Of a stretch of 64,000 bases of DNA, positions 18,876 through 45,651 are shown one piece after another. The first letter of the stretch is position 1. Each line of letters opens with the position of its first letter. The notes beneath the pieces are model-generated. The model searched no databases and was not told the DNA's origin. It saw only the letters and a list, made by a program, of their open reading frames with translations. The DNA is taken from the NCBI RefSeq assembly GCF_963668385.1, contig NZ_OY764327.1, positions 6,146,724 through 6,210,723 on the forward strand, read 5' to 3'. A program made the position numbers and the translations under genes. Origin of the DNA: an uncultured Carboxylicivirga sp. GTDB taxonomy: Bacteria; Bacteroidota; Bacteroidia; Bacteroidales; Marinilabiliaceae.

Positions 18876-20285
18876 ATGCAATTCAACGATACAATATGTG
18901 CAATTTCAACAGCCCAGGGAATGGGAGCAATTGCCGTCATTCGTCTTTCAGGGCCTAATAGTTTTTCAATTTGCCAAAGCATCTTTACTCCTGCCAAGGA
19001 AGGAAAGGTTTTAGCAAATCAAAAGGCAAATACAGTCCATTTTGGAACCATTGAAGATGGCGAAACAAGTATCGATGAAGTATTAATCAGCCTTTTTAAA
19101 AACCCACATTCGTTTACTGGTGAAGATATTGCTGAAATTGCTTGTCATGGATCTCAATTTATCCAACAACAAATTTTACAGCTATTAATCAGAAAAGGTG
19201 CACGACTTGCGCGTCCTGGTGAATTCACTCAACGAGCATTTTTAAACGGAAAAATGGATTTGAGTCAGGCTGAAGCTGTAGCCGACCTTATTGCTTCAAG
19301 AAGTGAGGCAGCTCGACGTGTTGCCTTGCAACAAATGCGCGGAGGCTTTTCTAATGAACTGATCAATTTAAGAGCTCAGTTATTAAATTTTATTTCATTA
19401 GTTGAACTTGAACTTGACTTTAGCGAGGAAGATGTTGAGTTTGCGAATCGTGATGAATTAACAAAATTGATTGATAATATATCAGGATTACTATCTAAAC
19501 TAATAAAATCCTTCTCGTTAGGTAATGTAATTAAAAACGGTATTCCCGTTGCCATTGTTGGGCATACCAATGCCGGAAAATCAACATTATTAAACACTCT
19601 TCTTCAAGAAGAAAAAGCTATTGTATCAGACATACATGGAACAACACGTGATGTAATTGAAGATACTATCAATATTGAAGGTATTACTTTTCGTTTTATT
19701 GATACGGCTGGAATACGTGATACAGCAGATAAAATTGAGTCTCTTGGAATTGAACGCACCTACAACAAAATAAGCAAAGCACAAATTGTACTATTAATGT
19801 TGGATGTCAATGATCCGGATGATAAAATTCATGAAGCCATTGACAATGTTAAAAATAGGATGCATGAGGGGCAGCAATTAATTGTGGTTGTCAATAAAAC
19901 TGACCTCATGGAAATTAGTATTGTAGAAAATCGTTTTCATGAAGCCTCTTTCCATGAATTAACAGGCACAGATGCCATTGTTCCCATCTCGGCTAAGCAA
20001 CACATCAATATTGAAGGACTTACGGCAGAACTACTAAAAACGGTCAACCTTACTGCTTTAGATAACGATGAAGTAATTGTAACTAATGCACGACATTACG
20101 AAGCTTTACAAAACTCATATGAAGCAATCATGAGAGTCTCGCAAGGCTTAACTTCAGGAATTAGTGGCGATTTCTTGGCTCAAGACATCAGAGAAGTACT
20201 TCATTTCTTAGGTGAGATAACAGGACAGATAAACACTGACGAAGTATTAGGTAATATCTTTAAGAACTTTTGTATCGGGAAATAA
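18876..20285 (+). CDS. mnmE: tRNA modification GTPase MnmE (TrmE)
   Basis: GTPase that with MnmG installs the 5-carboxymethylaminomethyl group on the wobble uridine of several tRNAs. Length 469 residues, normal for the family. The N-terminal formyl-THF-binding domain begins DTICAISTAQGMGAIAVIRLSG and includes GEFTQRAFLNGKMDLSQAEAV-type sequence; the Ras-like domain has G1 GHTNAGKST (about 228-236), DTAGIRDT (switch II) and NKTD; the C-terminus ends with the conserved FCIGK, whose cysteine is a family hallmark. It is the only forward-strand gene in a long run of reverse-strand genes and appears monocistronic. Confidence 0.97.
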   Translation: MQFNDTICAISTAQGMGAIAVIRLSGPNSFSICQSIFTPAKEGKVLANQKANTVHFGTIEDGETSIDEVLISLFKNPHSFTGEDIAEIACHGSQFIQQQILQLLIRKGARLARPGEFTQRAFLNGKMDLSQAEAVADLIASRSEAARRVALQQMRGGFSNELINLRAQLLNFISLVELELDFSEEDVEFANRDELTKLIDNISGLLSKLIKSFSLGNVIKNGIPVAIVGHTNAGKSTLLNTLLQEEKAIVSDIHGTTRDVIEDTINIEGITFRFIDTAGIRDTADKIESLGIERTYNKISKAQIVLLMLDVNDPDDKIHEAIDNVKNRMHEGQQLIVVVNKTDLMEISIVENRFHEASFHELTGTDAIVPISAKQHINIEGLTAELLKTVNLTALDNDEVIVTNARHYEALQNSYEAIMRVSQGLTSGISGDFLAQDIREVLHFLGEITGQINTDEVLGNIFKNFCIGK

Positions 20286-20561: not shown

Positions 20562-22022
20562 TTATTTTGTTTTTGAAATAAAAAGCATATCTGGTTTTAT
20601 TGGTCCTTTTTTAATACTTCTGCTTTCGAGGCCTAATTGAAGCTCCTGTCCCATATAATCTTCGAAATACAATACTTTAATATGATGCATTCCTTCTGCT
20701 AATCCAATGCTGCCTTTCTTAGTACGGGCACTATGGCCGCCATCATTATCAACTACTTTTTTACCATCAATATATAAACAACTGCCATCATCCGATCTCA
20801 GATAAAAAGTATAAATATCCTGTGCCGGCATCTGAATATAAGCCTCAAATTCATAGGCAAAATGATCTTCAACCGGAGCTGATTTAATGGTAAAACTATC
20901 AAACACGCCGCGCCTTTTAACAGGTAACGATGCAATTTCATTTACCGATTCTACCTCTCCTTCGTAATAACGATAGGCCACTCCGTTTTGCAACTTATCA
21001 TTTACTTCAACGGCTGGTAGATATTCAGTTAACACGGGCATATTTACCGGATAATGATAAAAATATTCTCTGCGCGAAGGAATACTTATCCAGGTATCAA
21101 AACTAAACTGATGCGGATATAGAGTGATGACTCGAGCTCCGTTTCGTAATTCACCATAGGCATTTGAACCGGTGCAACGACCATATGCCAAAGCAATGTT
21201 ATTAACTTCACCTATAAAATCATTGTTATGATCGTGCCCGCAAAAAACACCCATTACATCTCCATTCAAAGCCATTGCTGCAAACAATCCTGTATTAATT
21301 TCAGGTGAAGAAACACCTTCAAAAGCATGCCCGACAATTTTATCTTGCTGACTGATTACCTGCTTATATTCAGGCAGTGGAATATGAAAAAAGGCTAAAG
21401 AAGGCACCGGAGTATTCTGATGTTGTTTTGCCAATTCATCTGATGTCTGCTGGTATCTTTCAATTTGATCTCTACCTATCCAACCATACTTACCCGGTTG
21501 ATACATGCTGGCATAATCGTTAGAATCGAACAAATAAACAGCCGCACCAATTTCACCTTTACCTGTTTTTACTGGTAATGTAAAATCGTGCAATAATCCA
21601 TTGGGCTTTGGGTTGATATTATAATCCAATGAGCTAAGAACTTTATACACATCATCTCTGGAAACCTTGCCTTCTGAATCGTGATTACCCAGCATAGCAA
21701 TCCATTTCACCTTATGATTACGCACAGATTGAGTCACTTCTGTCCAGGCTTTTTGTAATTGCTTCAACGATTCCATTTCCGAAAGAACCACGTCGCCAGT
21801 ATAAACCACCAAATCGGGTTTTTCACGATCCAAAATATCATTTATCAAAGCTACATTTGAGGCATTGCATACCTGATCAGATACCCAATGAACATCGGTA
21901 AACTGAATTATTTTAAAAATTGAATCATTTCTGAAAAATAACTCCTTAGGTTTACTATTCTGAGCGATACTGTTTATACAAAACAGTAGAATCAACGGCA
22001 TTAAAAAGCTTGTTAAGCGCAT
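20562..22022 (-). CDS. Calcineurin-like metallophosphoesterase with C-terminal PA14-like domain
   Basis: A 486-residue secreted phosphoesterase. Signal peptide 1-20. The two-metal site motifs of the calcineurin superfamily are all present: FTDVHW (Asp43, His45), YTGDVV (Asp77), LGNHDSE (Asn113, His114) and CGHDHNN near residue 262. The last ~135 residues look like a PA14-type beta-barrel (FYLRSDDGSCLYIDGKKVVDNDG, then HHIKVLYFEDYMGQELQLG), a module that often binds carbohydrate. The catalytic part resembles purple-acid-type secreted phosphatases that dephosphorylate sugars or nucleotides, but the substrate cannot be deduced. Starts 15 bp after the alkaline phosphatase gene and is the last gene of the phosphoesterase SusCD locus. 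Confidence 0.85.
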   Translation of the reverse strand: MRLTSFLMPLILLFCINSIAQNSKPKELFFRNDSIFKIIQFTDVHWVSDQVCNASNVALINDILDREKPDLVVYTGDVVLSEMESLKQLQKAWTEVTQSVRNHKVKWIAMLGNHDSEGKVSRDDVYKVLSSLDYNINPKPNGLLHDFTLPVKTGKGEIGAAVYLFDSNDYASMYQPGKYGWIGRDQIERYQQTSDELAKQHQNTPVPSLAFFHIPLPEYKQVISQQDKIVGHAFEGVSSPEINTGLFAAMALNGDVMGVFCGHDHNNDFIGEVNNIALAYGRCTGSNAYGELRNGARVITLYPHQFSFDTWISIPSRREYFYHYPVNMPVLTEYLPAVEVNDKLQNGVAYRYYEGEVESVNEIASLPVKRRGVFDSFTIKSAPVEDHFAYEFEAYIQMPAQDIYTFYLRSDDGSCLYIDGKKVVDNDGGHSARTKKGSIGLAEGMHHIKVLYFEDYMGQELQLGLESRSIKKGPIKPDMLFISKTK

Positions 22023-22037
22023 ATTGAATGGGTTTTG

Positions 22038-23576
22038 TTATTCTTTTTTATATTTCTGATATCCGTTTCGGGCATAGAATAGCAAAGCAGCTTCTTCGGA
22101 CGTTAGATGCACCTTGGCATGTTTTTCCAGCTGTTGTTTTAACTCTTCGGCACTACCCGATGATGCAAAAATGGAAGATAAAGTTCGATCTTGCCCCTCC
22201 AACATCTGAATATAATCATGATAATGCAATGGATTGGTATTGTTTTCCCAAACCACGTTATCAGATAAAGTACGTTTTTCGTAGGTATGTTCTTTTTTGT
22301 AAGCTATTTCCAAACCACCTGTTTCATGATCGGCAGTAAAAACCAATAAAGTCTTTGCTGGATTACTTCTGTATTGATTGTAGGCGATTTTAAGTACATT
22401 ATTCATTTCCTCAACCGCCTTATATACCGAAACCACATCGTTATCATGTGCTTCCCAATCAATGCGTGCACATTCAATCATAGTGCATGTTGGTTGTAAT
22501 GATTCTTTAGATAGAGCGAGTCCTTTTTGTGCCATTTGCGTAACTGTAGGAATACTTGCCGACTTACTATTATAATCAATTGCCGGTGGCAAACCTCCTC
22601 CTTCAAAAAGACCAATGACTTTACCTGATGCTACACTATTCAACTCATTCAATGTAAAACATAGCTGAAAATCTCTACTCTTCAATTGAGCAAATAAGTT
22701 CAACGAATCTTTTCTTGATGAATGATAATCCGGATACTCTGATCCACTGTAATAATCACACAATACCTTTCCCTGAGGTAAAAATTGCGAACCACCACCA
22801 CCTAATACCACATCCACGCATTTGCTTTTTGCCAGTTGAAATGCGATATCCGATTCCCAATCGCGATTGGCAGCATGTGCATAAAAGGCTGCCGGTGTGG
22901 CATCTGTAATTCCAGCATCACTGATGATGGTATTAAAATAACCTTTGGACTTAGATAGCTCCATCAGACTTTGAAGTGCATTGCCCAAGGTATCCAGTCC
23001 AACCATATTCATCAATGTTTTTGATCCGGTGGCAATGGCTGTTCCTGATGCAGCCGAACCGGTAACCAGGCCTCTGGCCGTACTGGTATATAAATACCCA
23101 CAGGTACCTTCGGCCATTATTCGTTCGAAATAAGTTTTTTCATCCGACTTCTCAGCATATCGTTTATACACAGGCAATGCCATATGCATATTTCCCATTC
23201 CATCGCCAATCACCAAAATAACATTGGTCCCTTCATTCACAGCTTGTTTTAGTACTCTTCCCAAAGAGTCATTGTGAACAATCCCTTGTAATTTCTTCAG
23301 ATATTTTTGTGGTCCCACTGCACCTAAAGGCACTGGTGCAGCCGTGTGAAAATTGGTGCTCCATAATACCTGGCTATCCTCTGAAATTAAACGATTATAC
23401 AAAGCATGAGCCAGCGATCGCTTAAACCAGTAACCAGATTCTTTATCAACAATTACCTCATGTACTTTTTCGTCGGTAATACCGTCTGTATTTGCACTTT
23501 GCTGACAACTAACCAATACGAGAAGTATCAGTGTAAAACCCCATGAAGCCATGCGGTTAAATATTTTGTTTATCAT
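22038..23576 (-). CDS. Alkaline phosphatase family lipoprotein
   Basis: A 512-residue phosphomonoesterase of the PhoA superfamily. N-terminal SPII signal with lipobox VLVSC (Cys24), so membrane-anchored. Motifs: first metal ligand in VIGDGMGNM (Asp125); nucleophile region VTGSAASGTAIATG, in which Ser174 would be the phosphorylated serine, preceded by Gly rather than the Asp of the E. coli enzyme; second-half ligands in IDWEAHDND and FTADHETGG. Releases phosphate from monoesters at the periplasmic face or surface. Upstream in the operon is a phosphodiesterase, which would create its monoester substrates; downstream, 15 bp away, is a PA14 phosphoesterase. The 340-bp gap before it holds an odd repeat-rich stretch, so it may also have its own promoter. 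Confidence 0.9.
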   Translation of the reverse strand: MINKIFNRMASWGFTLILLVLVSCQQSANTDGITDEKVHEVIVDKESGYWFKRSLAHALYNRLISEDSQVLWSTNFHTAAPVPLGAVGPQKYLKKLQGIVHNDSLGRVLKQAVNEGTNVILVIGDGMGNMHMALPVYKRYAEKSDEKTYFERIMAEGTCGYLYTSTARGLVTGSAASGTAIATGSKTLMNMVGLDTLGNALQSLMELSKSKGYFNTIISDAGITDATPAAFYAHAANRDWESDIAFQLAKSKCVDVVLGGGGSQFLPQGKVLCDYYSGSEYPDYHSSRKDSLNLFAQLKSRDFQLCFTLNELNSVASGKVIGLFEGGGLPPAIDYNSKSASIPTVTQMAQKGLALSKESLQPTCTMIECARIDWEAHDNDVVSVYKAVEEMNNVLKIAYNQYRSNPAKTLLVFTADHETGGLEIAYKKEHTYEKRTLSDNVVWENNTNPLHYHDYIQMLEGQDRTLSSIFASSGSAEELKQQLEKHAKVHLTSEEAALLFYARNGYQKYKKE

Positions 23577-23916
23577 TATTTTGTTTTAAACTCAATTCTG
23601 TCCTAATTATTTTTCAAATTGGCGCTTCGCCCAAACCCGACTTCATTTAGTTCACGTTTACTTATTTTTAATGGTGTTCATGATTTCCGCTTTGCTACAA
23701 TTCTTGCCTTGATGCAAGAAACGGAAGCAAAGAAAATCAAGGCTGCATCTGTCTCACTAAAAAAAACTACGGTCAATTGACTGAAATCGTTTAAAATCGT
23801 TGGCTTCGCTCAACTCAAACAAAAAACGATTATTAATCGTCAATTCAACCTTGTTTTTTTGCTCGCCAGCTGAGGCCATTTATACACAGTAGCTTTCTTT
23901 CCTAATCAAATATTAT
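23577..23916. repeat. Repeat-rich intergenic element within the phosphoesterase operon
   Basis: No coding frame. The middle part (about 23610-23880) is richer in G+C than other gaps and packed with inverted repeats: TTCTTGC/GCAAGAA (23701-23707, 23714-23720), GCCTTGAT/ATCAAGGC (23706-23713, 23736-23743), the palindrome GTCAATTGAC (23772-23781), and ATCGTT copies facing ACGATTATTAATCGT near 23825. It reads like a remnant of a dispersed intergenic repeat; other copies would have to be found elsewhere in the genome. Confidence 0.45.
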
Positions 23917-24702
23917 TTAGGATGCTATTGTTTTAAACTCATTAAATAACATCGGAGCATCCGTTCCAATTAAATCAACTCCAGCCGACGTTAAAACTTT
24001 CCAGAAAACCTCTGCCTGTTCTCCTTTACCAGGGTATCCCCAAAAGCGGATCATCTTATTATGTTTTTTGCAAACACTCACCATCTCTTCAAGCTTCTGA
24101 AATTCCTTCTTAGAAATTTCCCCTTGCCCACTCCAAGTAAAATAATTGTACCAATCATCACTAATTAATGGAATAAGAGCACTCTCTTCCTGCAGCTGTT
24201 CTTTGTTGTATCTTCCATCAATAAAAACCATGCGTTGTTTTTCGTTTCTTACTGTTTCTATGGGGCGATCGCCAGACAGAATGATGGTAACCAAACCTTT
24301 TTCAACTTTACCGTTGCGATAAGCACTTAGAATTTGTTGATAAGGTTCCAATTCCTTCTTTAATATTTTATAGGCCTGCTCCGCTTTTTCTTTAATATCA
24401 ATCATCAAAATCACTGATTGATTACCTGTATTTCCATCTTTAAAATGGTCAAACAATGGTTGCAAATACAAATTAACCAGATTACTTTTGTTGCTTAGCT
24501 CCTCTTTATCGTGCCCTACTAACAAAGTTCCATCAACAGGATACACATCAGCCTCTATACTTACCAAACCGGCTTCTAAAGCATCAGTTAATGGATGAGG
24601 GCGATGATAGTCGTTATGCGAGTGTCCACCTGAAAAAGTCAATTGGGCATTAGCGAAAGTAAAACAGAAAAGAATCGATATAAAAGTCAAACAGTATTTC
24701 AT
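23917..24702 (-). CDS. Secreted GDPD / PI-PLC-like phosphodiesterase
   Basis: A 261-residue TIM-barrel phosphodiesterase with signal peptide 1-19. GGHSHNDYHRPHPLTDALEAG begins the domain; the catalytic histidines are His27/His29 and His64 (LVGHD), and the metal ligands Glu50 and Asp52 (IEADV), the layout shared by glycerophosphodiester phosphodiesterases and PI-specific phospholipase C-like proteins (the AIM6-like subgroup). It would cut a phosphodiester to a phosphomonoester, feeding the phosphatases encoded just downstream. It follows susD after 64 bp containing a strong hairpin. The exact substrate (glycerophosphodiester, phosphoinositol or a glycan phosphodiester) is not decidable from sequence. 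Confidence 0.82.
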   Translation of the reverse strand: MKYCLTFISILFCFTFANAQLTFSGGHSHNDYHRPHPLTDALEAGLVSIEADVYPVDGTLLVGHDKEELSNKSNLVNLYLQPLFDHFKDGNTGNQSVILMIDIKEKAEQAYKILKKELEPYQQILSAYRNGKVEKGLVTIILSGDRPIETVRNEKQRMVFIDGRYNKEQLQEESALIPLISDDWYNYFTWSGQGEISKKEFQKLEEMVSVCKKHNKMIRFWGYPGKGEQAEVFWKVLTSAGVDLIGTDAPMLFNEFKTIAS

Positions 24703-24710
24703 ACAACAAT

Positions 24711-24746
24711 TTTTAAAACCAGGTCGTTACCATAGAGTAACGACCT
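24711..24746 (-). terminator. Hairpin after susD of the phosphoesterase locus
   Basis: A perfect 10-bp stem AGGTCGTTAC/GTAACGACCT (24721-24730, 24737-24746) with a 6-nt loop, followed on the minus strand by GGTTTTAAAAATT. It sits between susD and the phosphodiesterase gene and may be a partial terminator or an mRNA-stabilising 3' structure that lowers expression of the enzyme genes relative to susCD. Confidence 0.7.
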
Positions 24747-24766
24747 AATCTAGAACACACTATTAA

Positions 24767-26356
24767 TTAATTCCAACCTTTGTTTTGAGGAATACCGGAA
24801 CTTCTTATTACTTCGTTTGGAATAATCCAAACATTATGAACTTCAGGATTATAATTACGAGCCGGCCATATTTCTTCAATGGTATATTCTGAGTCCGGAT
24901 CTGTTTTATCAGCATGAATACGTCCGTGCAAAGGCTGACTATACACATCTTTGGCATCACCCCAGCGCACTAAATCGCGATGACGATTGGCAAACTCACC
25001 TGCTAATTCAACTCTTCTTTCTTGTTTTAAATCAGCTAAAGTACAGTCAGATTTATCAGCTAAACCGGCTCGATTACGAATCATATTAATCTCTGCATCC
25101 GCATTCTGACCTTGCATCAATTTTGCTTCTGCTTTCATCAGAATTACTTCGGCATAGCGTAACAAAGGCATATCATAAATGGTGTATAATGCATCACCAT
25201 TGGCATTGATCAATCCATTACCGATAGGATCGTCGTATGAGTAAATATCCATGTATTTATTGAACTGAAAACCAGATAATGAGTTAGTTGAATAATAACG
25301 ACGTGACTCTCCCCAGAACTGAAATTCATCACCAAAATTTAAAATGGTAGCCGAACGACGGTAATCACCTTCTTCAAAAGCATCGTATAATTCTTCGGTT
25401 GGCATAAAATAACCCCAACCGTTGTATACTCCCCAACCTTTGTTTTCGAGCATTACTCCTTGCAATTTACTTCCGCGGTCGATACCACCAACAACCGACC
25501 AAATATATTCTGATCCGAAATCATTAGTATATTTAAATACGCTTCTGTAATCTACCGAAGGAGTATCGGTATCAATTAATGCTCTACCCGATCCTGAATT
25601 GGTAACCAAATCGCAACATTCTACAACATTTTTCCATTTTGTAGCATCGTACTGCGCCCAATACAAATAGGTTTTAGCCATATAAGCATAACACGCATCT
25701 TTATGTGCTCGCCCCATATCATCGGAGCTATAAGTAGTGTACAATGGCAGCAACTCAGCAGCTTTGGTCAAATCCTCGATTATTTGCGCATAATTATCGG
25801 TTACACTTGCCGGACGAACAAACGAAGTATCTTTGTAATTGTCTTCGGTAACGATAGGTACACCACCACTTACATCATTACCGTATGTTGAAGCCACCCA
25901 AAAGTAATGGAAAGCTCTCATGAAATAAGCTTCACCTAAGTAACGATTCTTTAAATCCTGATCGATATTCATTGGAGTAACATTCACAATTACATCGTTG
26001 GCACGACGAATAATTTTATAACTCTGAGGATACATCCAGCTGGCATAACCTTCATCACCTGTCATGTTGAAGTTCTTGATGTTTTCAGGCACCGACTTTG
26101 GACGACCGGTTACCATATCATCACTGGCATTGATATACCACATAAATCCGCGCGAAAACATATCTTCATCGCCCATGTAGTAATACATTGCGTTAACTGC
26201 ATTTTCGGCATCCTGAGCCGTTTGATAATAGTTTGCTTCACCGGCAGCTCCCAATGGAGTTCGCTCCAGGAAATCATCTGAACAAGAGGTGCTACCTAAC
26301 ACCATTAATGCTGCACAAGCACTTAAGTATATATTCTTTAATTTCATTGTTGTCAT
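24767..26356 (-). CDS. SusD/RagB-family nutrient-binding outer-membrane lipoprotein
   Basis: Surface lipoprotein that forms the lid of the SusC transporter encoded just upstream (9 bp gap). 529 residues; the start may be Met1 or Met4 (MKLKNIYLSACAALMVLGS), with lipobox STSC then SDDFLERTPLG, a standard SusD N-terminus. The TPR-like helical N-terminal half is visible (AEAYFMRAFHYFWVAS-type sequence, AKTYLYWAQYD), and the family C-terminus (MPLLRYAEVILMKAEAKL, NMIRNRAGL, ERRVELAGEFANRHRDLVRWG) is intact. Because all other enzyme genes of this operon are phosphoesterases, its ligand is probably a phosphorylated compound or glycan; that is inference. Confidence 0.95.
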   Translation of the reverse strand: MTTMKLKNIYLSACAALMVLGSTSCSDDFLERTPLGAAGEANYYQTAQDAENAVNAMYYYMGDEDMFSRGFMWYINASDDMVTGRPKSVPENIKNFNMTGDEGYASWMYPQSYKIIRRANDVIVNVTPMNIDQDLKNRYLGEAYFMRAFHYFWVASTYGNDVSGGVPIVTEDNYKDTSFVRPASVTDNYAQIIEDLTKAAELLPLYTTYSSDDMGRAHKDACYAYMAKTYLYWAQYDATKWKNVVECCDLVTNSGSGRALIDTDTPSVDYRSVFKYTNDFGSEYIWSVVGGIDRGSKLQGVMLENKGWGVYNGWGYFMPTEELYDAFEEGDYRRSATILNFGDEFQFWGESRRYYSTNSLSGFQFNKYMDIYSYDDPIGNGLINANGDALYTIYDMPLLRYAEVILMKAEAKLMQGQNADAEINMIRNRAGLADKSDCTLADLKQERRVELAGEFANRHRDLVRWGDAKDVYSQPLHGRIHADKTDPDSEYTIEEIWPARNYNPEVHNVWIIPNEVIRSSGIPQNKGWN

Positions 26357-26365
26357 TATTAGTAA

Positions 26366-29300
26366 TTAAAACTTCATTGATACACCGGCAGATAATGTTT
26401 GAGCTACAGGATATTTACCCATATCTAAACCAATACCTCCCACTTCAGGATCCATGCCTGTGTAATCAGTGATGGTAAATAAATTCTCGGCCGATACATA
26501 AACACGGAATGATGATCCTTTTACCAAGCGATCCATAATATTACCCGGGATAGTATAACCTACAATCAGGTTTTTCATTCTGAAATAAGAACCATCTTCC
26601 AAATACCAGTCAGAAGTAGTCTCGAAGTTTTGATTAGGGTCATTCAAACGCAACATTGGAATATCAGAGCCACTGTTTTGAGAACTCCATGCACCCATTA
26701 CCCTGTTATCAAGGTTATATCCTTGCTGAGCTGCGTTATAAGTCGTAAACTTCATGGCATTAAAGATCTTAGATCCGCTTACACCCTGGAACGACATTGA
26801 GATATCAAAACCTTTGTAATCAGCTGATATATTAAATCCATAAGTAAAATCAGGGAAAGCATTACCCATAAACACACGGTCGTCAGTATTAATAATTCCG
26901 TCATTGTTTTCATCCACAAATTTTAAATCACCAGGTTGTGCATTGGGTTGAATTAACTCACCATTATGTGTGTAGTTGTTAATTTCTTCCTGCGATTTAA
27001 AAGTTCCTTCGCTTTGAATCAGGTAATAAGAGAATAAAGGTTTACCAACCTCTGAACGATATGGATACAATACCGAACGGGCATTATCGCCATGATCAAT
27101 ATAATCTGTATTGAAATTATCAAGGTTCTTAAGGGTATTTTTAAGTGTTGCCAGGTTACCATTAACTGAATAATTCACGCCTCCTAATTTACCTTTATAA
27201 GTAGCTGCAAATTCAAAACCTTTGTTCTCAACCAAACCACCATTTACATCGGCTCCACTTGAAATACCGCTATGCGAATCCACGGTAGTTTCCATAATCA
27301 TATCACGGGTATTTTTTACGAAGTAATCGGCTGTCAATTCAACTTTTCCTCTTAAGAAAGATGCATCGATACCCACATCGGTTGATTCGGATGTTTCCCA
27401 GGTAAGATCAGGATTTGAATTTTTGTTGACATAGTAACCAGCCACTCTGCTTGCATCACCGGCTCCCATGGTAGCAATCTGGGTCGACATGGGTACATTA
27501 TAAGCATAGTAATAAGCTGAATTGATGTTACCAATTTTACCCCACGATGCACGAAGTTTTAACATGCTAATCCAATCCACATCACTCATAAATGATTCGC
27601 TGGAAATTTTCCATGCTCCTGAGAAAGACGGGAATACATCGCTGTTATTATCTTTATACAAACGTGATGAAGCATCGCGACGCACACTGGCTGTTAAGAA
27701 ATACTTGTTTTTAAAATCGTAACGTAAACGGCCAATCATCGAAATTAATGCATCTTCGTAGGCATCGCTTGTCCAGGTATCCATTTGTCCGGCATTTTCG
27801 AGGTATTGATACCATTCTTCTTCGCGGGCAAAATCAGATGAACCAATGTAATTGTATTCGTATTTGGTTAACTGACTTGAATAAATACCGGTCAAGTCCA
27901 GGTGATGACTTCCAAAATCCTTGTTGTAAGTAACCTGGTTATCCCAAATCCACTTGTTGCGATTAGCCCAGCTTTGGTATAAATAATTCATTTCAGAAGG
28001 ACGTCCGTTCTCTGGTCGTTTTGGCTGAAACTCTTTATAATCGTTTTTATTTTGCGAAAGACTTAAAGCTGAACGGTATTTCAATCCGTCAATAACTTCC
28101 CACTCGCCATAGATATTAGCATTAATATTGGTGGTTGGGCTTTTAATAGTCGGACGCAACAATAAGGCTACCGGGTTATAAACATCACCGTAAGCACCGG
28201 CAAAATCAGAACCTTCGGGAGCTACTCCGTGGAAGTTTCCCTCTTCGTTGTAAACAGGTGCAGCAGAAGGCATGTACATCGCATTAATAATCACGCCTGA
28301 ATAACCTGAATTAGTATTGGCTCCTACAGCTTCTTCGCGCGTTACATAAATATTTTCACCTACTTTAATACGGTCTGATATTTTATAATCAGATTTCACT
28401 CTAATACCTAAACGTTCTGATGATGTTCCTTGCAACACACCTTCTTTATCCATGTAATTAACCGAAGTGCTATAAGTAACTTTATCAGATCCACCATAAA
28501 CACGTGCATTGATATTATTAACACTTGCCGTTCTGAAAATCTCATCCATCCAGTTTGTGCGAGTAATCGTTCCCCATGGATTTAGATCAGCATTATGGGC
28601 ATCGTAACGATCCATTCCACTGTTATCGGCAGCTGTGTTGTATGCCCAGCTTTGTTGTTCGGCAGTTAACGGAGTTGGCAGGTTGGTAGCTTTTTGAATA
28701 CCGGTATAAGCATCGATATCAACCCCCATTTTACCGGTCTTCCCGCTTTTAGTAGTAACCACAATTACACCGGCACCCGCCTGAGCACCATAAATTGCTG
28801 CTGCTGAAGCATCTTTTAATACATCAATGCTTTCAATATCATTTGGGTTAATGGATCCGCCATCATAAGGCATTCCGTCTACCACCCAAAGTACATTTTC
28901 GCTACCTGAGTTTAAAGTTCCCATACCACGAATGGTAATTTTTGGAGCACTGCTTGGATCTCCTCCCTGATTAACCACCGTTACGCCGGCAATATTACCT
29001 TGTAGAAAACTCTCGGCATCCGTTATCGGACGACTATTAATTTGATCAACGTTGCTGGCTGAAGCAACCACATTGGTTAAATCTCCCTTTTTTGATGTAC
29101 CATAACCAATAACCACCACATCATTTAATGCAGTATATTCGTCTTTCATTACCACATCGATGCTTGCATCACCACTAAACTCTTTTTCATTGGTTTCCAT
29201 TCCAATAAATGAAAAAAGTAAAATACCCTCTTTTTCATTGGTTACAAAAGAGTAATTTCCATCCGCATCGGTAATGGTTCCTTCAGTTAGTCCTTTTATC

Positions 29301-29422
29301 GAAACACTTACTCCTACAACCGGGTTTTGTGTTTGATCTGTTACCCTTCCCTTCAACTTCGTTTGGGCAAAGCTCCACGATGAAAGCAACACGGTTAAAC
29401 AAATAACAAATAATTTTTTCAT
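26366..29422 (-). CDS. SusC/RagA-family TonB-dependent outer-membrane transporter
   Basis: A 1018-residue TonB-dependent importer. Signal peptide 1-19 (ending SFAQ), then a CarboxypepD_reg-like domain (KGRVTDQTQNPVVGVSVSIKG, residues about 24-105), the TonB box/plug region (DVVVIGYGTSKKGDLT, about 100-230, including IRGMGTLNSG and AAAIYGAQAGAGVIVVTTKSG) and a 22-stranded barrel to the C-terminal Phe. No STN domain is present, so it is not the anti-sigma-coupled type. First gene of the phosphoesterase operon, under the HTCS encoded 305 bp upstream. Energised by TonB-ExbBD to import ligands captured by the SusD partner. Confidence 0.96.
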   Translation of the reverse strand: MKKLFVICLTVLLSSWSFAQTKLKGRVTDQTQNPVVGVSVSIKGLTEGTITDADGNYSFVTNEKEGILLFSFIGMETNEKEFSGDASIDVVMKDEYTALNDVVVIGYGTSKKGDLTNVVASASNVDQINSRPITDAESFLQGNIAGVTVVNQGGDPSSAPKITIRGMGTLNSGSENVLWVVDGMPYDGGSINPNDIESIDVLKDASAAAIYGAQAGAGVIVVTTKSGKTGKMGVDIDAYTGIQKATNLPTPLTAEQQSWAYNTAADNSGMDRYDAHNADLNPWGTITRTNWMDEIFRTASVNNINARVYGGSDKVTYSTSVNYMDKEGVLQGTSSERLGIRVKSDYKISDRIKVGENIYVTREEAVGANTNSGYSGVIINAMYMPSAAPVYNEEGNFHGVAPEGSDFAGAYGDVYNPVALLLRPTIKSPTTNINANIYGEWEVIDGLKYRSALSLSQNKNDYKEFQPKRPENGRPSEMNYLYQSWANRNKWIWDNQVTYNKDFGSHHLDLTGIYSSQLTKYEYNYIGSSDFAREEEWYQYLENAGQMDTWTSDAYEDALISMIGRLRYDFKNKYFLTASVRRDASSRLYKDNNSDVFPSFSGAWKISSESFMSDVDWISMLKLRASWGKIGNINSAYYYAYNVPMSTQIATMGAGDASRVAGYYVNKNSNPDLTWETSESTDVGIDASFLRGKVELTADYFVKNTRDMIMETTVDSHSGISSGADVNGGLVENKGFEFAATYKGKLGGVNYSVNGNLATLKNTLKNLDNFNTDYIDHGDNARSVLYPYRSEVGKPLFSYYLIQSEGTFKSQEEINNYTHNGELIQPNAQPGDLKFVDENNDGIINTDDRVFMGNAFPDFTYGFNISADYKGFDISMSFQGVSGSKIFNAMKFTTYNAAQQGYNLDNRVMGAWSSQNSGSDIPMLRLNDPNQNFETTSDWYLEDGSYFRMKNLIVGYTIPGNIMDRLVKGSSFRVYVSAENLFTITDYTGMDPEVGGIGLDMGKYPVAQTLSAGVSMKF

Positions 29423-29727
29423 GTTTTGAGTATAATTATTTACACATTTTCAATTTTGAATCATCCTGTTTTTGTAGATTAAATCTGGTACCTTAATTCA
29501 ATCTGTTTTCAATACTTAATTTGAAACTTATGCAGATGATTCGTTTTTCAATCCAATGCGAAACTACTATGAGACAAGACTTTTTGAGGTAGACATATTT
29601 TGCAAACAGTTGGATTATTCTTGCATTTACGGTAAAAAACCATCAATCTTTCGCACATATTTTGCAATAATATTGAGGTAACATTAGCGTAAATGAGGGG
29701 TAATAATAGAAGAACTAAAATTCAGAA
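29423..29727. other. Regulatory gap upstream of the phosphoesterase susC
   Basis: 305 bp between the HTCS stop and the susC start. It should contain the susC promoter. A clear TAnnTTTG element was not found on the minus strand, but paired direct repeats lie near 29584-29680. Confidence 0.6.
29584..29680. promoter_or_regulatory. Candidate operator: paired direct repeats upstream of susC
   Basis: ACATATTTTGCAA occurs exactly twice (29593-29605 and 29655-29667), and TTGAGGTA occurs exactly twice (29584-29591 and 29673-29680). In the first block TTGAGGTA precedes ACATATTTTGCAA, in the second it follows. Repeats 62 and 89 bp apart, 170-260 bp before susC, are plausible binding sites for the adjacent HTCS AraC domain. 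Binding is inference. Confidence 0.45.
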
Positions 29728-32700
29728 TTACACCTGCATTTCGGTAGCCTGTTTTCTGAAAGAATTTGGACTTATTCCATACTCTTTGGTAAAGCAACGA
29801 CTGAAGTACTTCGGATCGTTAAAGCCAACCATAAAGCTTACTTCGTTTACGGAAAACTTACCTTCAGAAAGCAAAGCCTTTGCCATTTTTACGCGATACG
29901 ATCGGATTAGCTCATTGGGAGTATTTTGCATATGTTCTTTCACTTTACGGTACAACTGCATTTGACTCACTCCTAATTCTTCCGCCAGAATCTGCTGATT
30001 AAAATCTGCGTTTGAGGTTTGTACAGATAGAATTTCATTGATCTTTCGCACCAGCTTTTCGTCGTACGACGATTCTTTACTTTTAGCTGGTTGAACAATG
30101 GCTTCTACTTTTAACGAATGCTCAATCTGATTACTTCGTTTAATGAGGTTATTAATTTTCAGATGCAACAATTCCGGATCGAATGGCTTTGAAACAAATT
30201 CATCAACCCCGGCAGTAAATCCCTCTTTCTCGTTTTCAACATCGCCCAATGCTGTTAACAATATAAATGGGATTTTACTTAGCTGAGACTTCCGCTTAAC
30301 ATACTTACACAAGGATATGCCGTCCATTACGGGCATCATCCAATCCGATAGAATCAAATCAACCGACTTGTTTTTAGCCAACAAGTGTTTAGCATCCAAA
30401 CCATTATTGGTTAATACAACCTTGTATTTTACACCTAATAATTCAACCAAATACTGCTGTAGTTCCACATTGTCTTCTACAATTAAAATGGTGTTTTTGT
30501 CGGGATGGTTAACTGCCGAATTTTCAACTTCAACATGTAAATTGTTGTAAGATGGATTTTCTTCCATATGATCAACTAATGGAAAACATAATTTAAATGA
30601 ACTTCCCTTTTCCATTTCACTTTCTACCTCAACTTCACCCTTCAACAACGAAACAAATTCTTTTACCATCGATAATCCAATTCCATTTCCCGGAGCACTA
30701 TCGCTTGATTTATTGATTTGATAGTATCGATCAAAAATATGCTCAATCCTGTTTTTGGGCATTCCTATCCCATTGTCAATTATCTCTAAAAGAAAATGAC
30801 TTGGCTCAATAATGAGGTTGCATTGAATAATACCACCTGGGGGAGTAAATTTAATGGCATTAGCCAACAGGTTATAAATGATTTGCTGTAGCTTATCAAA
30901 GTCGAAATTGGTAAACAATGAGGTTTGATTGGTATGAAATTGCAATTGCTGATCGTTGATTTCCACCTGATCACGAAAGGAGTTGAGAACACATCGACAG
31001 ATATCCACTAGATCGCCTCGTGTATTAATACGCTTTAATCCTCCCAACTCAAGGCTTTTCTTATCCAATACCTGATCGAGCAGTTGTATAATGTAATTAA
31101 CATTGCGTTCCATTCGATGCAGCTTTTCCTTTGTGGGTTGGTGGATGGTTTTATCCTTTAATATCTCCGACAGAGGCCCGGATATAAGTGTGAGAGGTGT
31201 GCGAATATCATGCGATACATTAGTAAAAAACTTCTCCTTAAGCAGATTTGCTTCTTCGTATTTGGTATTCATCTCCAGCAAATGGGCATGCTGAGCCAAT
31301 ATCTGATCGCGCTGGGCTTGTACCTTGTCCGACTTTCGTTCCAAATCGGAAAAAGCTTTTTGCAAATCACCCTTTTGTTTGGCTATCTTATCGGTACGTT
31401 GCCCTACCAACTTTTCCAGCTCTTCTTTTTGCTTACGCATATTTACATAGCGAATGCGAACAATTGCTAATATCAGAATCAGTACAAACACAACTGCTCC
31501 CAGATAGAAATAAAAGCTAAACCAAAAAGGTTTGGCAATGGTAAACGAAAGAACCGTATCCGTCTTCGACCAATAATTATCGGCATTTGCACCTTTAACC
31601 TTTAAATGATACTGCCCCGCCGGTAAATCGGAATACTTAACATGGGCTAAATGTCCTTTCTGAATATGAAAAGTATCATCTAAAGGTTGAAGCTTCCAGG
31701 CAATTTGAGCATTATCTAAACCGTTCATCAACACCGCATGCAAATCCAATTCAATGGCTTGAGTTGCATACGAAAAGGCATATACCGAATCGGCTTGCCA
31801 CGTATTTTTCGTTTGGTTATCCACTACCAGATGATCAGAAAACAAATTGGGGATAACCTCATCGGGTTTAATATTATCGGGATTAAAACTAATGAGTCCA
31901 CCTACACCGCCAAAGTACATTCTGCTTTCATTATCGAAAAATCCGGCTCCTTCGGTATAATTAGCCAAGGTGAATCCATCGTTTTCGCCAAAAATCCTCG
32001 TGGTTCGATTGATAATATCATACTTTGCAATACATTTTGAAGTACTTAACCAAAGCTGTTGTGCATCATCAACATACAATTTATAAACTAAAGTAGTTGG
32101 TAATTCTCTATTCAACAATGGCAACAACTTTACGTCGCCTTTTTTATTGATGCAATTAACACCGCCAAAAGTACCTAACCAGATATTTCCCTTGGTATCT
32201 TCAATAATATCGAATACACTATTGCTGGAAATTTGCCTACTTGAAGACGTTTCCGTATAGTGAGCTTCAATAGTACTATGTTTGTAATTGATCCTATAAA
32301 CACCTTGGGTTTCGGTAGCCACCCATAAATATCCCTTACTATCGAAAAAGAGTTTTCGCACATTGATATCAGGCAGGTTTACTTTTTCAAGATAGTTGGT
32401 AAAACTATCTTCTTTGGGGTTTAGCAGCTGAATTCCTTTCCAGCCACCCATAAGCAGTTTTCCATTCTTATCGCTTGCAAAACTATAGATTCGGGATATT
32501 TCATCAGAACGACCATCGAAATAAGTGATTTGATTGGATCCATCTCTAAAACAACATAAACCATCGTACGTTCCCACCCACACTGTCCCCCTAACATCCT
32601 GGTAAATAGAACGAACCCAATCCCATTTATCTCCCTTGATTTTACTAAGCGTTATCTTTTTAAATCTCTCGCCCGATCCTACAAGCAAACCATTGTTATA

Positions 32701-33612
32701 CGTACCCAACCATAAACGCCCTTTATTATCCTGAAGCATCGCACGAATGGTATTCATCGAAATAGTGGAATCGTTACTATGATAATGAATGGTTACCGTA
32801 ACCCTACTGTTATTTGGGCGCCCAATATTAATTCCCTCGTCTTTGGTACCAATCCACAGGTTATTTTCACGATCCATAAACGCAGCATAGACCTCGTTAG
32901 TGGCTATTTTTTCATCATCATCGCTTTGCATCGAATAATGAATAAACTGAGTTGACGATAAAGAAGGTAAATACCACACTCCTGAATTAATGGTTGTAAT
33001 CAAAACACAATCCTTATCCCAATCAACCTGCATATTATGAATATCGATGTCTGGATGCTGCTGTTGGAGTTGCTGTTGTAGCTTTACTTTTAATAACTCG
33101 TTGTTTTTCCATTCGTTTATTAAATAATGATTCTTTTGGAGCTTCTTGAAAGCATCCTCAGTGGCATTATAACTATAAAAAACAGAATCGGCTTTTACCA
33201 GCAGCTTTGCTTCGCGTGAAACATATAACTCAACCGAACTATTTTGAGTACTATTTGGCAATGTATAATAGCAGCAATTTCCATCCTGATTAAGAATACG
33301 CACCAACTGATTGTTATCGTACCTGACCCAAACAAAATTATTTTCGTCAATCTGTAAATCCAACGCAATACCTTTGGGCAGGTTTTGATGATACCCTTTA
33401 GGTTCGTAACGAATTATATGCATGCGCATACCATCATACACACATAATCCGTCGTAGGTCGCCATCCAGATTCTACCTAATTGATCCTGATTTATGCTTA
33501 AAACGGTATTGTTTGATAATCCATCATTGGTGGTTAAATGCGAAAAAGTATAAATGGGCTGTGCCGCAAGCCTGAAGCCAATAAAGAACAATAATAAACA
33601 GATTCCCCTCAT
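29728..33612 (-). CDS. Hybrid two-component system sensor/regulator (HTCS)
   Basis: One-protein sensor and transcription factor controlling the adjacent SusCD locus. The chosen start (Met14 of the open frame, 33612) gives MRGICLLLFFIGFRLAAQ, a signal peptide; the ATG at 33651 would bury it. About 1294 residues from there. Order: periplasmic two-propeller sensor with repeated LWIGT/IWMATYDGL motifs; Y_Y_Y domain; transmembrane helix (FYLGAVVFVLILILAIV); coiled coil; histidine kinase with FFTNVSHDIRTPLTL (phospho-His near 800) and NLLANAIKFT, DNGIGMP, GNGIGLSM ATPase motifs; receiver with ILIVEDN and phospho-Asp in LILSDWMMPVMDG (near 1090); C-terminal AraC HTH (VSQMQLYRKVKEH, FNDPKYFSRCFTKEYGISP). 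All catalytic residues look intact. The ligand is unknown, but HTCSs usually sense a breakdown product of their own locus. Confidence 0.94.
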   Translation of the reverse strand: MRGICLLLFFIGFRLAAQPIYTFSHLTTNDGLSNNTVLSINQDQLGRIWMATYDGLCVYDGMRMHIIRYEPKGYHQNLPKGIALDLQIDENNFVWVRYDNNQLVRILNQDGNCCYYTLPNSTQNSSVELYVSREAKLLVKADSVFYSYNATEDAFKKLQKNHYLINEWKNNELLKVKLQQQLQQQHPDIDIHNMQVDWDKDCVLITTINSGVWYLPSLSSTQFIHYSMQSDDDEKIATNEVYAAFMDRENNLWIGTKDEGINIGRPNNSRVTVTIHYHSNDSTISMNTIRAMLQDNKGRLWLGTYNNGLLVGSGERFKKITLSKIKGDKWDWVRSIYQDVRGTVWVGTYDGLCCFRDGSNQITYFDGRSDEISRIYSFASDKNGKLLMGGWKGIQLLNPKEDSFTNYLEKVNLPDINVRKLFFDSKGYLWVATETQGVYRINYKHSTIEAHYTETSSSRQISSNSVFDIIEDTKGNIWLGTFGGVNCINKKGDVKLLPLLNRELPTTLVYKLYVDDAQQLWLSTSKCIAKYDIINRTTRIFGENDGFTLANYTEGAGFFDNESRMYFGGVGGLISFNPDNIKPDEVIPNLFSDHLVVDNQTKNTWQADSVYAFSYATQAIELDLHAVLMNGLDNAQIAWKLQPLDDTFHIQKGHLAHVKYSDLPAGQYHLKVKGANADNYWSKTDTVLSFTIAKPFWFSFYFYLGAVVFVLILILAIVRIRYVNMRKQKEELEKLVGQRTDKIAKQKGDLQKAFSDLERKSDKVQAQRDQILAQHAHLLEMNTKYEEANLLKEKFFTNVSHDIRTPLTLISGPLSEILKDKTIHQPTKEKLHRMERNVNYIIQLLDQVLDKKSLELGGLKRINTRGDLVDICRCVLNSFRDQVEINDQQLQFHTNQTSLFTNFDFDKLQQIIYNLLANAIKFTPPGGIIQCNLIIEPSHFLLEIIDNGIGMPKNRIEHIFDRYYQINKSSDSAPGNGIGLSMVKEFVSLLKGEVEVESEMEKGSSFKLCFPLVDHMEENPSYNNLHVEVENSAVNHPDKNTILIVEDNVELQQYLVELLGVKYKVVLTNNGLDAKHLLAKNKSVDLILSDWMMPVMDGISLCKYVKRKSQLSKIPFILLTALGDVENEKEGFTAGVDEFVSKPFDPELLHLKINNLIKRSNQIEHSLKVEAIVQPAKSKESSYDEKLVRKINEILSVQTSNADFNQQILAEELGVSQMQLYRKVKEHMQNTPNELIRSYRVKMAKALLSEGKFSVNEVSFMVGFNDPKYFSRCFTKEYGISPNSFRKQATEMQV

Positions 33613-33651
33613 ATCGTCAAATTGAATCTGTAAAAGTATGGTAACCACCAA

Positions 33652-34340: not shown

Positions 34341-36304
34341 CTACTTTTGTTTAATTCTTATTACTGTCAATGAATAAGGATCTAAATCTAGTTTCAATTT
34401 ATTCGAAGATAGTTTTACTTCTTTATTTACAGGAATAATAACATTAGGATTTTCAAGGGTATTATATGCTTTTAGATCAGAAGTTCCGATTACAGTTAAA
34501 GAACCTTTGGAAGCAAATTTCTTGGCCGAATTAAGAACAAAAGAAGTGGCTTTAGCTTCCTTATTGTTATTTACAATTTTAATCACTACTTCATTTGTGT
34601 TTGCATCCCATACCGAAGAAGCATATAAGTTATTTTGCCCGGCTAGATCTTTACCATTCATTTTAATCGAAAGAAGATCAGTTCCTTTATTTACACCATA
34701 TAATTGCTGCACATAATAATTTGGCGTAGATACAGATTTCAAATTATCAAACCATATCAGATCCGGGCGCCACTGCCATGCTTCTACATGTGCAAAAAGA
34801 GGCGCATATGAACACATATAAACCACATCTGCGTTACGCTCTAAACCTGTCATAAAAGCAGCTTCAGACAAGGCACTTAACCAGTCATTGTTATTATCCG
34901 GTCTATCGTGCGACGCATATTCACCCGCAAAAATCTTATACGAATCTCTATCGTAATCATCGTATCGAGTGGCATTGTTAAAGAACCAATCCGGGGTATT
35001 GTAATAATGCTCATCTACTAAAGCAGCATTATAATTCTTTAGTTCCTCCTTAGCATAATCAAAAAACGGATCTTCAGGAAATGGCCCCGTCGTGGAAACA
35101 ATACTCATTTCAGGATATTTTTCCATGATGGCCTTCTCAAAAATAGCATAACGCTCGAAATACTGAGGCCCCCACTGTTCATTACCTACACCTATATATT
35201 TCAGATTAAAAGGTTCGGGGTGTCCCATATCTGCTCTAAGTTTACCCCATTGGGTTTGTGTTGAACCATTAGCAAATTCAATTAAATCGAGAGCATCTTG
35301 CACATAAGGCTCTAATTGATCTAAAGGCACGAGCTCTGCTGTATTAAACTGACAGGCCATACCGCAGTTTAAAATAGGAAGAGGCTCAGCACCTATATCT
35401 TCCGACAATAAAAAATACTCATAAAAACCAAGACCAAACGATTGAAAATAATCAGGAGTAGAACGGTGACTAAATTCGGTATTCCAACGATTCACCATTA
35501 CAGTTCGATCTTCTATATCTCCCACTGTTTTTTTCCATTGATAACGTCGCGAAAGATCACGCCCCTCAACAATACAACCTCCGGGAAATCGAAAAAATCC
35601 GGGTTTAAGGTCTGCCAGTTTCTGAACTAAATCAGCTCTTAACCCACCCTTGCGGTGTTTCCATGTATCATCAGGAAACAATGAAACCATATCAAAATTC
35701 ACTGTTCCTTTCCCTTCAAAATAAAGCTTTAACTTTGCTTTAGGATCTGTTTTAGAACAAACAAAACTTACTTCATACTTTTTCCAGTCTTTCCCTGACA
35801 ATTCAATATTTGTTTTTCCAATCACTTGCCCCAACGAATCCAATAACGACACACGTAAATCTACTTTTGATTGACTTACCAAAGAAGCTAACATTGAAAA
35901 ATGATAGGTATTATTATTCTTAACTCCATGCCTCTGAATCCTTCATTAACCATTGAAAAATTTGATTGTTTTTCATCCAAGAGAACAGTTGCAAATCGTG
36001 GATTGTGAGGATTTTCGCCCCCTCTATTGGTTATTAAAAAATGAAACGAATCGGGATTGGTTCTTTCTATATCCCATCCCATTTTAGGATCAAAAAATTC
36101 AAAAGAACGGTTTTTAACCAATTCGGCATATAAACCGCCATCTGCAGCAAAGTTGATATCCTCAAAAAAGATTCCCCACATAGTAGGTTGTATTTTTGCT
36201 ATTGGCTTATCTATATCTATTTGAATAGATTGAGCACTGAGTTTAAATGTAACTGTCGAAAAAAGTAACAGAACACTTAGTAAGAGTCTGGACTTGTTAT
36301 TCAT
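34341..36304 (-). pseudogene. GH51 alpha-L-arabinofuranosidase, broken by a one-base frameshift
   Basis: Reads as two overlapping frames, 36304-35888 (138 codons) and 35894-34341 (517 codons). Together they make one secreted GH51 enzyme of about 655 residues, the usual size. The first frame starts with signal peptide and IDKPIAKIQPTMWGIFFEDINFAADGGLYAELV, the GH51 N-terminus. After NEGFRGM the frame is lost; restoring one G at the CC of 35926-35927 gives GVKNNNTYHFSMLASL, which continues into the second frame. The second frame holds the acid/base Glu in GVGNEQWG (about residue 238 of that part) and the nucleophile Glu in FAGEYASH (about 324). Normally it releases alpha-L-arabinofuranose from arabinan or arabinogalactan. 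No other damage is seen, so a recent mutation or a sequencing error in a short G run are both possible. Confidence 0.9.
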
Positions 36305-36338
36305 ACTGATTTATTTTATAATTTATGATTATCAAATT

Positions 36339-36377
36339 AAAAAAGAGGTTATATAAAAATTTTACGTAACCTCTTTT
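36339..36377 (-). terminator. Terminator between GH42 and GH51 genes
   Basis: Perfect stem AAAGAGGTTA/TAACCTCTTT (36342-36351, 36367-36376) with a T run on the minus strand, downstream of the GH42 stop. GH51 may therefore have its own promoter or receive read-through. Confidence 0.85.
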
Positions 36378-36438
36378 ATCTAATCTACCTATGTAACCCA
36401 ACTATATTAAAGTAATTGTGAACAAACATTTAAGTTAT

Positions 36439-38538: not shown

Positions 38539-38562
38539 AGGATTTTTTCATTATAAACTCAT

Positions 38563-38609
38563 GATAAAAACAACTTTTCCAAATAACAACGTTCGTTATT
38601 CAGAAAAGT
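38563..38609 (-). terminator. Terminator after the GH127 gene
   Basis: Long imperfect stem: ACTTTTC/GAAAAGT (38573-38579, 38603-38609) plus inner AATAAC/GTTATT, followed on the minus strand by TTGTTTTTATC. Lies between the GH127 stop and the GH42 start. Confidence 0.75.
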
Positions 38610-38622
38610 CATTATTGATATA

Positions 38623-40614: not shown

Positions 40615-40676
40615 AACAATTGGTTTTAATTTAATACACTTTCTCCTCAATGCTTTTTAAAATTCTTTATCAGTAC

Positions 40677-43460: not shown

Positions 43461-43477
43461 GTTGATTGTCTTTGATA

Positions 43478-43524: not shown

Positions 43525-43536
43525 CAATAATATATC

Positions 43537-45540: not shown

Positions 45541-45599
45541 ATCAATAGCTTTAACCAATTTGTTATTAGGTGGGACAAAATTGATTGCCCTCTATTATT

Positions 45600-45628: not shown

Positions 45629-45651
45629 TTTAATATTCTCAATTCATCTTA

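Follow-up and report, generated by a model that had tools for sequence, protein, structure and literature searches.

A SusCD locus with a hybrid two-component regulator and three phosphoesterases in an uncultured Carboxylicivirga, resembling Flavobacterium PUS loci

Introduction

Flavobacterium johnsoniae carries two loci, PUS I and PUS II, in which SusCD is paired with phosphodiesterases (PDEs) or with the alkaline phosphatase PhoA1, and which are induced by depletion of inorganic phosphate (Pi), as described in PMC8115612; among PUS loci, the same paper reports a PhoA with an extra GDPD_2-type domain (PF13653). PF13653 is assigned to PhoA1 (Fjoh_3249) in PMC8115612 but to PhoA2 (Fjoh_3187) in Table 1 of PMC8812569. 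The latter also describes that PhoA1 and PhoA2 of F. johnsoniae restored activity on para-nitrophenyl phosphate (pNPP) in a phosphatase mutant, and that both were judged non-essential for scavenging phosphorus from phosphomonoesters. Here we analyze a 64,000-nucleotide stretch of an uncultured Carboxylicivirga sp. (contig NZ_OY764327.1; the whole stretch is hereafter the window), in which positions 20562-33651 encode a hybrid two-component system (HTCS) regulator, SusC, SusD, and three phosphoesterases. With somewhat better than even confidence, we read this locus as an HTCS-controlled organophosphodiester utilization system, a variant of the Flavobacterium PUS loci.

This arrangement is in part already known: SusCD together with PhoA or PDEs, a GDPD_2 domain on PhoA, and Pi control are all described in PMC8115612. 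What is new here is HTCS control combined with a natural circularly permuted alkaline phosphatase (ALP). In a literature search that left subscription papers mostly outside its reach, we found neither HTCS control of a SusCD-phosphoesterase locus nor a natural permuted alkaline phosphatase or PhoA; likewise, no relevant paper came up under the PDB codes of the closest SusD homologues of solved structure.

Results

Gene content of the locus

Six open reading frames (ORFs) were confirmed, all on the minus strand of 20562-33651, where an earlier note on this DNA had placed the same gene set on one strand: HTCS, SusC, SusD, a GDPD-like diesterase, an ALP, and a calcineurin-type metallophosphoesterase with PA14 domain (MPP-PA14). 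That note had also seen no glycoside hydrolase (GH) or lyase in the set, and Pfam and NCBIfam scans found no carbohydrate-active enzyme (CAZyme) among the six proteins, where a glycan polysaccharide utilization locus (PUL) would hold at least one. The SusCD pair stands beside phosphomono- and phosphodiesterases, not CAZymes, which is the gene content of a PUS. The regulator unites a propeller sensor, kinase, receiver, and AraC helix-turn-helix (HTH) within a single chain, as an HTCS does. The features are as follows.

29728..33651, minus strand: HTCS, with Reg_prop/Y_Y_Y sensor, HisKA, HATPase_c, Response_reg, and HTH_18 (AraC-type)
29565..29646, minus strand: candidate operator of four degenerate sites at spacings of 22, 20, and 22 nt, lying 224 nt upstream of susC; borderline
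26366..29422, minus strand: SusC/RagA TonB-linked outer-membrane transporter (TIGR04056, 827.5 bits)
24767..26356, minus strand: SusD-like surface lipoprotein of a GDPD/ALP-linked clade (PF07980, PF14322; mature start CSDD)
23917..24702, minus strand: GDPD/PI-PLC-like phosphodiesterase (conserved residues, AlphaFold2 fold; Sec signal peptide)
23577..23916, no strand: 340-bp spacer between the GDPD and ALP genes, which contains dispersed repeat sequence of the genome
22038..23576, minus strand: PhoA-type ALP lipoprotein, circularly permuted as judged by alignment (PF00245, 7.6e-55)
23238..23381, minus strand: ALP segment of about residues 66-113, equivalent to the C-terminal zinc-His segment of canonical PhoA
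20562..22022, minus strand: calcineurin-type metallophosphoesterase with C-terminal PA14, MPP-PA14 (PF00149, PF07691)

The HTCS ORF start at 33651 is a mechanically called TTG; an ATG lies 13 codons in and is followed by a signal-peptide-like stretch.

Conserved synteny and coupling of GDPD to ALP

The conserved synteny for which the earlier note proposed a search was found. A Labilibaculum metagenome-assembled genome (locus L130; L and G numbers designate sampled loci and genomes) holds all six genes in identical order, and L. manganireducens (L129) holds five of them, without the MPP. Synteny across SusD relatives rules out a chance neighborhood. From a SusD-alignment scan, the best 80 of at least 573 relatives were taken and six from the phylum sample were added (86 loci); 85 were scored, L140 being dropped because its SusD ORF was lost by the overlap filter. 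GDPD and/or ALP lie within the operon in 58 of the 85 loci, for the most part fused into a GDPD-ALP protein, and within 6 genes in 62 of them. By regulator, the operon counts are 16/16 for HTCS loci, 29/43 for loci with a sigma/FecR-like pair, a class set by gene length and order (one FecR, in L189, and no sigma factor was checked by Pfam), and 13/26 where none was recognized. Inspected by hand, L140 has GDPD and ALP, and L125 has ALP across a gap of N; an apparent SusD-ALP fusion in L125 was rejected as this assembly gap.

Many relatives have GDPD and the PF00245 phosphatase as one protein, with GDPD as its N-terminal part; in a Flavobacterium relative (L208), for instance, SusC, SusD, and a GDPD/ALP fusion stand together with two small genes whose length is sigma/FecR-like. 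Within regions around 43 GDPD genes (L083, where no GDPD was called, being left out), 17 of 24 fused genes lie in an operon with susC, versus 67 of the 381 other ORFs in these regions (Fisher p 6e-8). Unfused GDPD genes were not enriched (3/14), and none of five longer GDPD genes without a called ALP was in such an operon.

A quick SusD tree, from which L140, L125, L166, and L146 were excluded, unites the window and 15 HTCS loci in one starred clade (genera Labilibaculum, Echinicola, Algoriphagus, Arenibacter, Maribacter, Cellulophaga, Wenyingzhuangia, Tenacibaculum, Pustulibacterium, and Myroides), with the sixteenth HTCS locus, L151, elsewhere. The third enzyme slot of the HTCS loci L131, L133, L134, L135, L147, and L176 carries a protein that clusters with that of L131, which is MetallophosN/Metallophos/MetallophosC by Pfam.

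At L124:8298-15535, a close SusD relative is followed by a type I phosphodiesterase-PA14 gene and a metallophos-clustering gene, not by GDPD/ALP.

Compared with nine flavobacterial/cyclobacterial HTCS loci, the window is 60-67% identical in SusD and 52-54% in SusC, with only 29-36% in GDPD, 31-39% in ALP (over 254-320 residues), and 25-28% in the HTCS kinase half. Identities to L129 and L130 are 51-54% in the kinase half and 55% in ALP; those to L151 are 41% in the kinase half, 47% in ALP, and 49% in SusD. From this pattern, the transporter and the enzyme-plus-regulator parts may have partly separate histories.

The HTCS sensor tracks the enzymes

We searched HTCS residues 1-735 against 48 genomes, its own included, scoring at most 23 candidates per genome. 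Outside its own genome, 40 matches in 26 genomes were found at 1e-30, and the top three (3e-66, 8e-64, and 1e-58) are the HTCSs of GDPD-ALP loci, G318/L097, G370/L099, and G330/L098. Only these three align across nearly the whole sensor, the G370 match having one internal stop; the second HTCS of L099 was not recovered at this threshold. The SusC proteins of L097 and L099 are only 36% and 35% identical to that of the window, and the sensor therefore goes with the enzymes rather than with SusCD.

The earlier note had suggested that the organic moiety is sensed. The linkage of the sensor to GDPD-ALP loci supports this suggestion in part, but in 43 of the 85 loci a sigma/FecR-like pair takes the place of the HTCS. 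A rival explanation is plain phosphate scavenging, in which the locus would be a PUS that serves to supply Pi during starvation; the HTCS would then merely add another input, and use of the carbon part would be incidental. The enzyme classes are the same as those of the Pi-depletion-induced PUS I and II (PMC8115612), and 69 of the 85 related loci are not HTCS-controlled; against this, the enzymes are kept in all 16 HTCS loci and the sensor tracks them. Three Pho-box-like strings were not found upstream of susC in the window, L129, L130, or L151, which weighs little because the box consensus is not established for this group. On balance, we consider plain scavenging rather unlikely.

The two halves of the regulator compare differently with their relatives (HTCS genes of L129-L139, L147, and L176). 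In nine flavobacterial/cyclobacterial HTCSs, the sensor half is slightly closer to the window (27-30% identity) than the kinase half (25-28%), while the Labilibaculum pairs show the reverse (sensor half 34-37%, kinase half 51-54%). From these identities, a domain exchange is possible.

A candidate operator before susC

HTCS operators have been predicted as direct repeats at a distance of about 21 bp (Ravcheev 2013, PMC3878776). Upstream of susC in L129, L130, and L151, we find four pyrimidine-rich sites with spacings of 22, 20, and 22 nt. The matrix was seeded by eye on these three loci, which are therefore training data, and was compared with shuffles that preserve base content only. On 13 other HTCS loci (500 shuffles each), 9 beat all shuffles, L131, L132, and L150 were equalled by one or two, and L135 failed. 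The 13 include two pairs of near-copies (L133/L134 and L139/L171) whose best registers differ within each pair, so the array register is not fixed by this test. As a control, further intergenic stretches from these loci were scored in both orientations, 90 strands in all: one beat all its shuffles, three were equalled by at most 5 of 500, and none scored 10 or more.

In the window, the candidate array lies 224 nt before susC, nearly the same distance as in L129 and L130 (216). No exact string of 9-12 nt upstream of susC is common to the window, L129, and L130, and no array was found before susC of the window's second locus (118 of 500 shuffles as good). The HTCS relatives thus appear to have operator-like direct-repeat arrays before susC, clear in most and borderline in the window.

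A circularly permuted alkaline phosphatase

As judged from its sequence, the ALP is a natural circular permutant in which an H412-type zinc motif stands ahead of the GDGMG core. We found six proteins of this kind. In phmmer alignments, ALP residues 113-480 align with the N-terminal part of the Halomonas ALP 3wbh, whereas residues 59-113 align with residues 472-526 at the C-terminal end of that protein. The same two-piece alignment is obtained with the Vibrio ALP 6qsq, although in both cases the second piece, taken by itself, is weak (independent E 0.1 and 0.017). The motif HTAAPVPLGAVGP stands at ALP residue 77, ahead of GDGMG (124) and TADHE (414), and departs from the canonical PhoA order of GDGMG core, TADH, and then HTxxxVPV segment. 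Nine residues are invariant in the six permuted ALPs (H77, D125, S174, R238, E368, D373, H377, D416, and H417), in agreement with the catalytic and metal residues of PhoA. From the E. coli numbering and a core alignment, we take them to be the E. coli PhoA catalytic and metal positions.

A strict motif test on 89 ALP-like sequences and two paralogues from the window's own genome gave 3 permuted, 54 canonical, and 34 undecided for want of an exact motif; the L130 ALP is among the undecided, and alignment shows it to be permuted. In the phylum sample, a search across the junction gave matches at 1e-3 in 21 of 395 genomes, strongly in the window's own genome, G167, and G507 and only weakly and partially in the rest; among 198 genomes of the order at 1e-8, only its own genome matched. 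The canonical C-terminal profile matches residues 58-105 of all six permuted ALPs, albeit weakly, and 1 of 600 shuffled controls scored nearly as high as the weakest of them (L129). Reciprocally, the permuted N-terminal profile matches 67 of 70 other ALPs, always in their C-terminal part. A truncated control, L118, scored highest, a second TSDH string within its C-terminal segment having misplaced the cut. The structure model of the ALP is poor (predicted local distance difference test, pLDDT, 57), and the permutation therefore rests on sequence; the listed Foldseek matches are all alkaline phosphatases, at root-mean-square deviations of 8 to 14 A.

In G167 (L229:10791-18463) and G507 (L231:6302-12856), GH92-PA14, permuted ALP, and metallophos-PA14 genes stand in a row, the metallophos-PA14 of G167 being purple-acid-phosphatase-like. 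No SusD relative was found in these stretches; further on in G167 (L230) lie a TonB-dependent receptor, NAGLU, and a sodium:solute symporter.

Identity of the GDPD-like diesterase

The 261-aa GDPD-like ORF has no Pfam (PF03009 and PF13653 included), NCBIfam, or PDB-sequence match, so the GDPD/PI-PLC-like label of the earlier note was a motif reading only. The label is nonetheless borne out by invariant residues, by the AlphaFold2 fold, and by homologues, some of which do match PF13653 or PF03009. In 13 aligned GDPD sequences, the window's included, S28-H29-N30-D31-Y32, E50-A51-D52, and H64 are kept, with HND/EAD/H invariant. The AlphaFold2 model (pLDDT 89) comes closest to GDPD/PLD-type barrels, among them S. 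aureus lysophosphatidylglycerol phospholipase D and E. coli GDPD (E 2e-6 to 5e-4, TM mostly 0.45-0.57); other barrels, such as an enolase, are found at lower ranks. A hidden CAZyme in this ORF is ruled out by the conserved residues and the fold matches. Of 395 genomes in the phylum sample, 44 contain GDPD relatives, the window being counted among them; in the order sample, 7 of 149 genomes do.

Enzyme location and the size of the substrate

An acidic run after the lipobox cysteine marks surface export, and the mature SusD starts with CSDD in the window and in 7 of 9 relatives inspected (CSSD in L147, CSED in L151). The enzymes of the window and nine relatives carry Sec signals or a lipobox without acidic run, the lipobox being that of the ALP, in L129 and L130 as in the window. 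With no surface-export signal, a periplasmic location is probable for these enzymes, and the locus shows no visible means of cutting a polymer outside the cell. Import first and periplasmic hydrolysis second would favor small or oligomeric phosphodiesters over intact polymers. The earlier note had proposed uptake of a phosphodiester-bearing polymer: a locus devoted to phosphoesters, with a diesterase and then a monoesterase, agrees with the phosphodiester part of this proposal, and the missing surface-export signals speak against the polymer part. SusCD systems often serve polymers and the GDPD model resembles GlpQ-type enzymes, but in the window and nine relatives no enzyme bears a CSDD-like surface signal and no cut before import is visible, and we consider it very improbable that the locus takes up a phosphodiester polymer of high molecular mass, for example teichoic acid.

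GH92 and a phosphomannosyl substrate

GH92 adjoins some relatives, and a phosphomannosyl substrate therefore has to be considered: the phosphoesterases would strip phosphate from alpha-mannosyl phosphodiesters (yeast phosphomannan, glycosylphosphatidylinositol-like glycans), with GH92 mannosidases supplied from elsewhere in the genome. GH92-PA14 and GH63-like enzymes share loci with the MPP-PA14 family (L042 and L047, with GH125 in L047), in both G167 and G507 the permuted ALP is flanked by GH92-PA14 on one side and metallophos-PA14 on the other, with the same gene order, and the window's own genome has 5 GH92 matches. GH92 is found within 6 genes of 9 of the 85 SusD loci, L151 included, but near only 1 of the 16 HTCS loci. 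Moreover, 1 of 41 SusD matches in the own genome has GH92 within 10 kb, than which 9/85 is not significantly more (Fisher p 0.16), and the window ORFs scanned hold no GH92. We judge this substrate improbable. GH92 as a standard partner was rejected on the same counts, and glycoside hydrolases consistently just outside the set, which the earlier note had named as evidence against its proposal, were not found for GH92, other GH families not being tallied.

Surroundings of the locus

The spacer at 23577-23916 partly matches 30 other places of the genome, most of them over a core of about 50 bp, and has no counterpart between GDPD and ALP in L129, L130, and L151. The window holds no tRNA and no Rfam family at gathering score. 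Downstream lies mnmE (18876-20285, plus strand).

About 690 bp upstream of the HTCS begins a separate locus (34341-53543) with its own SusCD and regulator, which holds GH51, GH42, two GH127-type proteins, and DUF5695. Its GH51-type gene (34341-36304) consists of two ORFs overlapping in different frames (35888-36304 and 34341-35894), and its regulator (50685-53543) is HTCS-like: it has a propeller and an AraC HTH, but neither a kinase nor a receiver domain was found. This arabinan-type locus was rejected as part of the system, being absent from the 2.5 kb before the HTCS in L129 and L130; in L130, MTHFR and methionine-synthase genes stand there instead, with homologues present in L129. At 6791-18562, a 3923-aa protein has 19 Calx-beta stretches, cadherin-like domains, and a CHU_C type IX secretion signal, and is adjoined by a PorP/SprF-like gene.

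Discussion

Gene content, conserved synteny, GDPD-ALP coupling, sensor linkage, and conserved catalytic residues carry the reading of the locus as an organophosphodiester utilization system. Several observations weigh against it. The choice of best-scoring SusD relatives makes the counts favor close kin. In 27 of the 85 loci, both GDPD and ALP are absent from the operon; of these loci, L124 carries other phosphoesterases, GH92 is present in L144, L162, L163, and L165, and many have no identified enzyme. The 47 other genomes of the sensor search had been picked for GDPD, MPP-PA14, or permuted ALP, again with at most 23 candidates each. An HTCS matched below 1e-30 in five sampled GDPD regions (L096-L099 and L120), of which the sensor search recovers three and misses, at 1e-30, the HTCS of L096 (a 625-aa piece) and that of L120. 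Finally, the array of the window scores 3.5, a value that 15 of 500 shuffles reach; in a separate run, 31 of 2000 were as good.

The enzyme location, order of steps, ligand, and inducer of the following scheme are what we infer. The surface SusD would bind a small or oligomeric phosphodiester (e.g., a glycerophospho-alcohol, phospholipid head group, or short phosphoglycan), which SusC would import. In the periplasm, the GDPD enzyme would cut the diester to a monoester, the permuted ALP would then remove phosphate, and the calcineurin-type PA14 enzyme may act on a further ester. The HTCS would sense the substrate or organic product in the periplasm and activate transcription from the direct repeats before susC. 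More tentatively, and with somewhat less than even confidence, the HTCS may recognize the phosphodiester or organic product independently of phosphate status, alongside a natural permuted PhoA that perhaps arose from a re-cut GDPD-PhoA fusion.

If true, SusCD/HTCS logic would extend from glycans to organophosphorus with substrate sensing. Many Bacteroidota members of the group sampled here are marine. The linked sensor and operator would offer a route to the inducer. PhoA is a much-studied enzyme fold, and studies of its folding and evolution would gain from comparison with a natural permutant.

Comparison with known systems

Likened by gene content, the locus shares with the Flavobacterium PUS I and II (PMC8115612) a SusCD pair beside PhoA and/or phosphodiesterases, without CAZymes. 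PUS loci are described there as Pi-depletion-responsive, whereas the window clade has an HTCS with linked sensor; the window also differs in that its GDPD and ALP are encoded separately and its ALP is permuted. With HTCS-regulated glycan PULs of the B. thetaiotaomicron type, it shares HTCS, SusC, and SusD; candidate direct-repeat operators near the predicted distance of about 21 bp (PMC3878776) are clear in most relatives and borderline in the window. No CAZyme is found here, and four repeats rather than two are seen in L129, L130, and L151.

The usual GDPD motif is HRG. The diesterase has the barrel fold and the His / Glu-x-Asp / His pattern of the GDPD superfamily (E. coli 1t8q, S. aureus 8ghh), while reading HSHNDY and not being matched by the Pfam GDPD models. 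Similarly, the ALP shares core and catalytic residues with PhoA (PF00245; Halomonas 3wbh, Vibrio 3e2d), its best PDB matches both by sequence and by the poor model, and differs in carrying what would be the C-terminal zinc-His segment at its N terminus.

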